DNA from: Betaproteobacteria bacterium
GTDB taxonomy: Bacteria; Pseudomonadota; Gammaproteobacteria; Burkholderiales; Burkholderiaceae_E
Direction: 5' to 3'
Assembly (NCBI GenBank): GCA_018970865.1
Contig: JAGWVN010000010.1
Span: 1 to 58,991, forward strand
Length of the DNA stretch: 58,991 nt
Below, piece after piece: positions 34,838 to 39,112 of the stretch (position 1 is its first letter; each line of letters starts with the position of its first letter). Below the pieces are notes generated by a model. It worked only from the letters and a program-made list of their open reading frames with translations. It was not told where the DNA came from and did no database searches. A program made the translations under genes and the position numbers.

Positions 34838-35497
34838 TCAGATCGACGGACCGGGCAGCGCGCGCATGAATTCCGCGCGCAGCTGGGCATCGTGCCCGAA
34901 GCAGCCCGCGAAGGCCTGCGTGACCACGCGCTCGTCGCCGCGCCGATCCTCGCCGAGCAGCAGGCACAGCTGCTCGGCCTCGATCACGCAGGCCGCGCCG
35001 GCGGCCCGACCATGCTGGTGGAGCGCGTCGGCGATGTCGCGGGTCATCCATTCCTGATAGGTGAAGCGGTGGCCGATCGCGTCGACCAGGCGCGCGATCC
35101 GGCCGAAGCCGTGCAGCCGGCCGCCGGGCACATAGGCGACATGGGCCACGCCGCGAAACGGCACGAGGTGGTGCGGGCACACGCCGTGGATGGCGATGCC
35201 GCGCACGATGACCATGTCGGTGCGCGGATCGGCAAAGCCCTCGCCGAGCGCCTGCGCCGGATCGAGGTTGTAGCCGCCGAGCAGGCGTCGCTCCCAGAGC
35301 TCGCGCACGCGCCGCGGGGTGCTGCCGGTGTGCGCGCCCTCGGGCTCGATGCCGCAGGCGCGCAGCAGGTCGGTGATGGCGCGCTCGAAGGCCGCCGGGT
35401 CGAAGCCGCCGATCCGCGCGATGCCCAGCGTGCCGCCGGGCGGCGGCGGGTGGGCGTGATCATGATCGTGATCGTGCGGGTGGGCGTGGTCGCTCAT
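34838..35497 (-). CDS. folE: Divergent GTP cyclohydrolase I homologue with His-rich N-terminus
   Basis: 219-residue tunnelling-fold protein of the GTP cyclohydrolase I family. Residues 4-16 alternate His with Asp/Ala/Pro, a likely metal-binding tail. Aligned by the spacing of zinc ligands to E. coli FolE (Cys110, His113, Cys181), Cys 107, His 110 and Cys 178 are kept. Catalytic His112 is kept as His 109, but His179 becomes Gln 176, Arg185 becomes Gly 182 and Ser135 becomes Gly 132; Glu152 is kept as Glu 149. Loss of these residues argues against normal conversion of GTP to dihydroneopterin triphosphate. It sits in a catabolic-looking cluster, so another substrate is likely. The name FolE denotes family, not proven activity. 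Confidence 0.82.
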   Translation of the reverse strand: MSDHAHPHDHDHDHAHPPPPGGTLGIARIGGFDPAAFERAITDLLRACGIEPEGAHTGSTPRRVRELWERRLLGGYNLDPAQALGEGFADPRTDMVIVRGIAIHGVCPHHLVPFRGVAHVAYVPGGRLHGFGRIARLVDAIGHRFTYQEWMTRDIADALHQHGRAAGAACVIEAEQLCLLLGEDRRGDERVVTQAFAGCFGHDAQLRAEFMRALPGPSI

Positions 35498-38125: not shown

Positions 38126-39112
38126 TCAGGCTGCCGGTGCGCTCAGCAGCGCCGCGAAGCGGGCCATGTCGATGTTGCCCCCGCTCACGATCACCCCCAC
38201 GCGCCGGCCGGCGAGCGCGCATACGCCCTCGAGCGCGGCGGCCGCGGCCAGGCAGCCGGTGGGCTCGACCACCAGCTTCATGCGCTCGGCGAAGAAGCGC
38301 ATGGTGCTGACCAGCTGCGCGTCGGTGGCGGTGACCACCTCGTCGACACACTCGCGCATGACCGCGAACGTGAGCTCGCCGGCATGCAGGGTCTGGGCGC
38401 CGTCGGCGATGGTCTCGGGCAGGGGGATGCTGACGATGCGCCCGATCGCGAGCGACTGCTGGACATCGTTGCCGGCCTGCGGCTCGACGCCGATCACGCG
38501 GCAGCCGGGCGCGAGGTGGCGCGCCGCCACCGCGCAGCCCGAGATCAGGCCGCCACCGCCCAGGCAGACCAGCAGCGCCTCGGGCGGGCCCTCACCGGCG
38601 GCGATCATGTCCTCGATGAGTTCGAGCGCGGCGGTGCCCTGGCCGGCCATCACATCGGGGTGGTCATAGGGTGGCACCAGGGTCATGCCGCGCTCGGCGG
38701 CGAGCTGTCGGCCGATCGCCTCGCGGTCTTCGGTGCGCCGGTCATAGAGGACCACCTCGGCGCCGTAGCCGCGGGTGGCCGCCACCTTGATCGCCGGGGC
38801 GTCGCGGGGCATGACCAGTGTGGCCGGCATGCCGAGCAGGCGCGCGGCCAGCGCCACCGCCTGGGCATGGTTGCCCGACGAGAAGGCCACTGCCCCGGCC
38901 TGCCGCTGCGCCGGGCTGAAGCGCGACAGCGCGTTGTAGGCCCCGCGGAACTTGAAGGCACCGATGCGCTGCAGGTTCTCGCACTTGAAGAACAGCTGCG
39001 CGCCGGTGCGGGCATCGGCCGCGGCGCTGCGCATCATGGGGGTGCGATGGGCCACCGGCCGCAGCCGGTCGGCGGCCGCGAGGATGTCGTCGAAGGAGAT
39101 CGGCAGGGCCAT
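38126..39112 (-). CDS. PLP-dependent serine/threonine ammonia-lyase family protein
   Basis: 328-residue fold-type II PLP enzyme of the threonine dehydratase / threo-3-hydroxyaspartate ammonia-lyase / serine racemase group. The PLP Lys is Lys 54 in GAFKFRGA, SSGNHAQAVALAAR near residue 78 and the Gly loop CLGGGGLISG near 185 bind the cofactor, and no ACT regulatory domain is present, so it is not the biosynthetic IlvA. It is first in the minus-strand cluster and would deaminate a beta-hydroxyamino acid to a keto acid. The substrate is not identified. Confidence 0.9.
   Translation of the reverse strand: MALPISFDDILAAADRLRPVAHRTPMMRSAAADARTGAQLFFKCENLQRIGAFKFRGAYNALSRFSPAQRQAGAVAFSSGNHAQAVALAARLLGMPATLVMPRDAPAIKVAATRGYGAEVVLYDRRTEDREAIGRQLAAERGMTLVPPYDHPDVMAGQGTAALELIEDMIAAGEGPPEALLVCLGGGGLISGCAVAARHLAPGCRVIGVEPQAGNDVQQSLAIGRIVSIPLPETIADGAQTLHAGELTFAVMRECVDEVVTATDAQLVSTMRFFAERMKLVVEPTGCLAAAAALEGVCALAGRRVGVIVSGGNIDMARFAALLSAPAA

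Follow-up and report, generated by a model that had tools for sequence, protein, structure and literature searches.

A clade of FolE-like proteins with retained zinc ligands, an altered active site and a coexisting GTP cyclohydrolase I

A gene in a 58,991-nucleotide stretch of Burkholderiales DNA (the whole stretch is called the window) belongs to a clade of FolE-like proteins that is under purifying selection, has retained its zinc ligands and coexists with another GTP cyclohydrolase I. The clade arose once from FolE (GCYH-IA), the zinc-dependent GTP cyclohydrolase I, and its active site has been altered. The clade protein is very probably not the GTP cyclohydrolase I of its organism. That it represents a FolE derivative with a new function, with FolE2 or a second FolE supplying the folate enzyme, is in our judgement close to an even call, if slightly short of one. 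The clade is apparently undescribed: among open-licence papers in PMC we recognised none that treats it, which is weak as a sign of absence.

The window ORF is a real gene and a homologue of GTP cyclohydrolase I (PF01227). Its GC content by codon position is 0.79/0.50/0.91, and its product scored 170.4 bits with PF01227 (cut-off 27), covering positions 2-177 of the 179 of the profile (Pfam). PF01227 was the sole Pfam match at E <= 0.001; PF02649 (FolE2/GCYH-IB) was not matched. Among solved structures, the window protein had 15 sequence matches, GTP cyclohydrolase I chains. Its AlphaFold model is of moderate confidence (pLDDT 73.1, pTM 0.65; residues 1-25 and 180-186 are among those with pLDDT < 50) and was for that reason taken as evidence of fold only. 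A Foldseek search with this model listed 50 PDB matches, every one of them a GTP cyclohydrolase I; the best had an E value of 5.7e-18, 38% identity and a TM score of 0.62 by query, and the rmsd between the model and FolE chains was ~5 Å. As modelled, the window protein is a member of the tunnelling-fold superfamily. The features discussed below are collected in Table 1.

Table 1. Coordinates in the window of the FolE-like gene and of the residues that distinguish its product
Feature	Position	Strand	Basis or remark
FolE-like gene of the window (L003)	34838..35497	-	219 aa, ATG start, stop codon within coordinates
His/Asp-rich N-terminal tail, residues 4-16	35450..35488	-	pLDDT < 50 for residues 1-25
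Glu66 (E. coli Lys68 position)	35300..35302	-	Joint alignment
Cys107-Pro-His-His110: ligands Cys110/His113 and His112 kept, Pro at the Glu111 position	35168..35179	-	Alignments
His129-Gly-Phe131-Gly132-Arg133: Ile132, Leu134, Ser135 and Lys136 positions all replaced	35099..35113	-	Alignments
Tyr147-Gln148-Glu149-Trp150: Gln151/Glu152 kept, Val150 and Arg153 replaced	35048..35059	-	Joint alignment
Clade signature Gln176-Leu-Cys178-Leu-Leu-Leu-Gly182-Glu-Asp-Arg-Arg-Gly-Asp-Glu-Arg190: ligand Cys181 kept; His179, Arg185 and Gly186 replaced	34928..34972	-	Joint alignment and distinct cores

Active-site residues and family models

The original prediction described a FolE homologue with intact zinc ligands in which three catalytic residues of the E. 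coli enzyme, His179, Arg185 and Ser135, had become Gln176, Gly182 and Gly132. E. coli residue numbers follow that prediction; the E. coli sequence used here runs one higher. A phmmer alignment with the FolE proteins of M. tuberculosis and Listeria (PDB 11yz, 4uqf) placed Gln176 on the catalytic His of the H-x-C motif. The Arg of the R-G pair was matched by Gly182, and the Ser of L-S-K by Gly132. Cys107, His110 and Cys178 aligned with the zinc ligands of both proteins.

We then aligned 99 clade loci, including the window gene (L003), jointly with 36 other FolE rows, one of which is E. coli FolE. Across these clade rows the three replacements show no exception: all 99 rows have Gln at the His179 position (His in 36/36 others), Gly at the Arg185 position (Arg in 35/36 others) and Gly at the Ser135 position (Ser in 35/36 others). 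The prediction had named these residues correctly and counted too few, for others are replaced clade-wide too. Lys136, present in 36/36 other rows, is Arg133 throughout the clade; Gly186, likewise present in 36/36, is Glu183; Thr146 is fixed where 35 of the 36 other rows have Gln; and the changes of Ile132 to His, Leu134 to Phe and Val150 to Tyr are also clade-wide. The position of Lys68 likewise carries an acid in 97 of the 99 clade rows and Lys or Arg in 30 of the 36 others. The loop after Cys181 is replaced in the whole clade, arginines 185, 186 and 190 are new and clade-invariant, and His129, Phe131, Tyr147 and Trp150 do not vary across the 99 rows. The zinc ligands Cys110, His113 and Cys181 are present in 99/99 clade rows, and the tabulated positions common to all clade and non-clade rows are Thr60, Arg63, Cys107, His109, His110, Gly130, Gln148, Glu149 and Cys178 of the window protein.

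Since some of the 99 loci repeat a genome, loci were collapsed to distinct cores. The 104 distinct clade cores (from 137 loci) contain EQLCLLLGE in 104/104 cases and HGFG in 103/104, with HGFS in the remaining 1/104. Further clade members with the Gln, a search for which had been proposed with the original prediction, were thus found, the residue being present in 104/104 distinct cores. L160 (G1098:C193) is the HGFS case and the sole core of the 104 with Ser at the Ser135 position. Outside the clade, the long-branch FolE homologue L131 (G112:C6:62406-66933) keeps His179 and has Gly at the Ser135 position and Ser at that of Arg185; it is possibly another altered FolE lineage.

With the folE equivalog model TIGR00063, the window protein scored 113.4 bits, below the cut-off of 181.6, and three more clade members scored 111.5-116.1 bits, the best of 28 members having an E value of 6.2e-34. 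With the equivalog NF006824 the window protein reached 75.7 bits, below the cut-off of 202. Control FolE proteins (five from plasmids and one from a viral contig) passed TIGR00063 and missed NF006824, and L002, the canonical second FolE of the window's genome, failed both (147.4 bits with TIGR00063 and 145.7 bits with NF006824). Because the TIGR00063 cut-off excludes the canonical L002 too, it is not decisive alone, and residues and tree carry the weight instead. The subfamily models NF006825 and NF006826, both named FolE, were passed by the window protein (203.4 of 174 and 190.7 of 162 bits) and by the three further clade members scored, and were matched by 28/28 clade members at E <= 0.001. 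These NCBIfam subfamily models, passed by the four clade members scored, would give them the name 'GTP cyclohydrolase I FolE'. The replaced residues, together with the other enzyme in 55/55 clade genomes, point to systematic misannotation of the clade.

The subfamily scores, and a pocket in which the zinc site, His112, Gln151, Glu152, Arg65 and Arg139 are all kept, would also fit a genuine GTP cyclohydrolase I with a re-engineered pocket, where Gln would take the place of His179 and arginines 185, 186 and 190 would hold the triphosphate. We regard this explanation as improbable in view of the constancy of His179 (36/36) and Arg185 (35/36) in the other rows, of the missed equivalog cut-offs and of the second GTP cyclohydrolase I that accompanies the clade gene in 55/55 genomes.

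Origin, distribution and coexistence with other GTP cyclohydrolases

In a tree of 64 rows (28 of the 99 clade rows and 36 others), the clade occupies one side of a 100/100 branch with a length of 3.46 changes per site, and the inner clade branches of the same tree measure <= 0.23. As some outer rows of the tree are long, we name no sister group for the clade. Values of dN/dS were 0.15-0.24 in 11/11 pairs with the window gene, and 111 columns are invariant in 28 aligned clade sequences. Alignment A1 comprises the window gene and 27 of 80 loci, these being the best 80 of 327 relatives; it omits L007, L063 and L070 (stop within the extracted range) and L005, L006 and L008-L010 (orientation uncertain). 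L022, a non-clade locus with canonical residues, was kept out of the clade counts, and out of the tree as a copy of L117. Such a pattern, in which a long stem gives way to tightly conserved descendants, would be expected of a copy that took on and held a new role. The description of the window protein as a re-purposed tunnelling-fold hydrolase agrees with this single origin, long stem and strong constraint, as well as with the other GTP cyclohydrolase I in 55/55 genomes. That residues required by the parent enzyme for its complete reaction have been lost might alternatively mark a decaying, functionless paralogue; purifying selection, seen in the dN/dS values and in the invariant columns, contradicts decay for the clade and leaves that explanation barely credible.

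The clade gene was found in 43/399 genomes of the order sample, where no match fell between an E value of 1.1e-91 and the limit of 1e-40. In the relatives search, a clade match was present in 19/121 genomes, counting that of the window (G000) and with the match of G061 split into two pieces; full-length clade members had at least 74% identity, versus 25-39% for other FolE copies. At E <= 1e-40, the class sample contained the gene in 1/370 genomes (G000 only) and the phylum sample in 2/397 (G000 and G114). Within the genome samples the clade occurs only in the order of the window, which the named carriers indicate to be Burkholderiales in the GTDB sense. Among the best 80 of the 327 relatives, these carriers include Thauera, Thiobacillus, Azoarcus, Aromatoleum and Denitromonas, and also Candidatus Accumulibacter, Gallionellaceae, Parasulfuritortus and Quisquiliibacterium. 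The finding points to an enzyme without an assigned role in Thauera, Thiobacillus, Azoarcus, Accumulibacter, Gallionellaceae and their relatives. Of 231 matching plasmid records, none reached 60% identity, and the 7 loci found in viral contigs (31-41% identity) included 0 clade members. On two different Rhizobium plasmids (L177, L178), an SDR gene comes after folE, which is arranged divergently with respect to a gene labelled 'Urease operon accessory protein'.

Other GTP cyclohydrolases were sought in 55 clade genomes, 19 from the relatives search and 36 further ones from the order sample. FolE2 was found in 17/19 and 36/36 of these, respectively (53/55 in total). The two genomes without FolE2, G002 and G007, have FolE copies (L134, L132, L136) with His179, Arg185 and Ser135, so that another GTP cyclohydrolase I is present in 55/55 clade genomes examined. 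The clade gene as the sole GTP cyclohydrolase I is thereby ruled out for these 55 genomes, and the clade protein is unlikely to be the folate enzyme. The window's own genome, in which a canonical folE had been suggested as a check on the prediction, contains both a second FolE with canonical residues (C108) and FolE2 (C139). This second FolE (L002, 1333-2049 of G000:C108) has kept His179, Arg185 and Ser135, yet is divergent. Directly after it lies an ORF of 142 aa (2062-2490, G000:C108), which by eye resembles BLUF proteins.

Six of the 36 further genomes carry another high-scoring FolE (248-254 bits); the one checked, L166, is canonical at the three sites. Where no such FolE copy is present, FolE2 is likely the folate enzyme. 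FolE2 occurs in 316/399 genomes across the order sample, in 42/43 clade genomes versus 274/356 others (Fisher p 5e-4, relatedness ignored), and since it is so common in the order, finding it beside the clade gene carries moderate weight only. RibA (PF00925) was detected in 55/55 clade genomes, the two matches in G000 being partial. A replacement of RibA by the clade gene is ruled out by this count, and a riboflavin role for the clade gene is not needed.

Proposed reaction and relation to known enzymes

Judged from its residues, the clade protein is probably still a catalytic zinc enzyme. The original prediction had it opening another heterocycle, which is possible; the kept Gln151 and Glu152 would argue for a guanine-like ring over an arbitrary heterocycle. 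We tentatively favour, at somewhat under even chances, a guanine-like substrate that would undergo ring opening only. A more specific proposal, which we put forward as doubtful, is that clade members are half-reaction zinc enzymes that would open the imidazole ring of a non-triphosphate substrate of guanine type and release a formamido- or diamino-pyrimidine for a pathway or repair step new to bacteria. In the ring opening that we favour, Gln151 and Glu152 would hold a guanine-like 2-amino-4-oxo heterocycle, a zinc-bound water would, with His112, attack the imidazole carbon (C8), and the product would be ring-opened, a formamido- or diamino-pyrimidine and not dihydroneopterin. Under the doubtful half-reaction proposal, the substrate could be a guanine nucleotide, guanine that has been damaged or modified, or a compound resembling a pterin.

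In FolE, Lys68 takes part in phosphate binding, Arg185 and Ser135 lie on the triphosphate and ribose side, and His179 is required for the steps after ring opening. With Arg185, Ser135 and the basic residue 68 gone and an acid at position 68, the substrate of the clade enzyme is probably not a triphosphate; with His179 replaced by Gln, the reaction probably stops at the ring-opened product. At the same time, Arg65, Arg139 and an Arg at the Lys136 position remain which, with the new arginines 185, 186 and 190, could rebuild phosphate binding. The E. coli His179 mutants, laboratory proteins described in work dated to Bracher 1999, reportedly yield the formylamino-pyrimidinone triphosphate. They resemble the clade in that the same His is gone and differ from it in their otherwise canonical pocket, whereas the clade is changed at the Arg185, Ser135 and Lys68 positions too. 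A report on human GTP cyclohydrolase I (PMC7750480) assigns R216, the equivalent of Arg185, to coordination of the beta and gamma phosphates and E183, the equivalent of Glu152, to recognition of guanine, and gives a ring hydrolysis of ~5 per s that is followed by a slow Amadori rearrangement and ring closure; the mapping of human to E. coli residues by +31 is our own. The clade offers a natural test of how a ring-expanding enzyme can be reduced to its first hydrolytic step or diverted from it.

Compared with FolE/GCYH-IA (PF01227; PDB 11yz, 4uqf, 1wm9, 1fb1, 1fbx), the clade shares whole-length homology, the Cys/His/Cys ligands, His112, Gln151 and Glu152. Unlike FolE, it has replaced His179, Arg185, Ser135, Lys136, Gly186 and the loop after Cys181, forms a separate group on a long stem and bears Cys and His at its N-terminus. 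RibA (GTP cyclohydrolase II), archaeal GCH III and the formamidases ArfB and BrbF represent formylamino-pyrimidine chemistry from GTP, and their folds are unrelated to that of the clade. According to PMC9478397, formylamino-pyrimidine intermediates are made from GTP in enzyme steps of bacteria and archaea. FolE2/GCYH-IB (PF02649), which according to PMC6718149 and PMC1971073 carries out the reaction of FolE with active sites built from matching segments, is unlike the clade in being encoded by a separate gene that accompanies the clade gene in 53/55 genomes; it is probably the folate enzyme of the clade genomes that carry it. A precedent for a tunnelling-fold enzyme with an altered reaction is QueF-like (QueF-L), the archaeosine synthase of Crenarchaeota, whose active site is partly kept in spite of the changed reaction (PMC5485725). 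In contrast to the clade, QueF-L is derived from QueF and acts as an amidinotransferase on preQ0-tRNA.

N-terminus and gene neighbourhood

A His-rich N-terminus, part of the original prediction, is real in the window gene; across the clade it proved to be one form of a Cys/His/Asp N-terminus. Clade N-termini range from a Cys/His/Asp motif of the type MSDCCDHDH (MSDCCDHD in many) to long His/Asp runs. At least 2 His or Cys lie within the 22 residues before the core in 98/99 clade rows, the start codons not being fixed, and at least 5 His in 15/99 only. As a rough control, 8/31 non-clade rows scored when the first 25 residues of the trimmed rows, which are not true N-termini, were counted. These N-terminal residues, the lost catalytic residues and the coexistence with FolE2, an enzyme without a strict need for zinc (PMC6718149), would suit a non-catalytic binder of zinc or a ligand, such as a zinc store, a sensor or a regulator of folate or FolE2, that combines the old active site with the Cys/His N-terminus. 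The invariance extends beyond the zinc site to the whole pocket, which suggests a small-molecule ligand. In addition, no Zur-like palindrome rose above simple letter shuffles in 98 upstream regions scanned with an E. coli-like consensus. We consider such a binder unlikely.

The window gene is surrounded on the same strand by SDR, dienelactone hydrolase and M20 amidohydrolase genes (Pfam), and the original prediction drew upon this catabolic setting. The neighbours recur in the near-identical genome G006. In a tblastn search (E <= 1e-12, at least 40% of the query), the congener G003 had the hydrolase, both M20 genes, the ammonia-lyase, GST and RF3 nearby, with the SDR gene not found. Around the clade gene of the congeners G002 and G007, the search recovered no neighbour of the window gene (regions of ~13-14 kb). 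When 100 loci were clustered, many of them too short for neighbours, no operon common to the clade emerged. Directly upstream of the clade gene at L057, L073, L082, L088 and L100 is a dienelactone-hydrolase-family gene of another kind, whose product looks secreted, its start resembling a signal peptide. Pfam named it from one representative, and it is distinct from the window's own downstream hydrolase, which had no tblastn match at these five loci.

Could the clade protein be a catabolic opener of an unrelated heterocycle that works with these SDR, dienelactone hydrolase and M20 amidohydrolase products, as first proposed? The arrangement in the window, the hydrolase and M20 genes of G003 and the other upstream hydrolase gene at five loci are consistent with it. 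We nevertheless rate it as highly improbable, given that neither G002 nor G007 showed the window's neighbours around the gene, that most other clade loci have different ones and that Gln151 and Glu152 are kept. The neighbourhood argument is accordingly weak, with no common operon behind it and the five upstream hydrolase genes as its remaining point, and a catabolic operon as a feature of the clade is unsupported, the window's neighbours being mostly local to close relatives. At 38126-39112 of the window, a threo-3-hydroxyaspartate ammonia-lyase gene (NF005454, 526.9 of 452 bits) lies beside two M20 deacylase genes. These likely form a local amino-acid catabolic group, which is probably unrelated to the FolE-like gene.

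Neighbours of another type, found at loci of Thiobacillaceae/Hydrogenophilaceae type, were counted among the 100 loci as DUF2238 (16), PEMT/ICMT-like (19), cytochrome b561 (9) and YceI (15 and 9), each cluster being named from one representative. Other groups do not share this set, and for that reason no function is built upon it. At L027, L036, L060, L068, L080 and similar loci, the clade gene follows a gene for a DUF2238 membrane protein, often with a 4-base overlap, and PEMT/ICMT-like, cytochrome b561 and YceI genes come next on the same strand.
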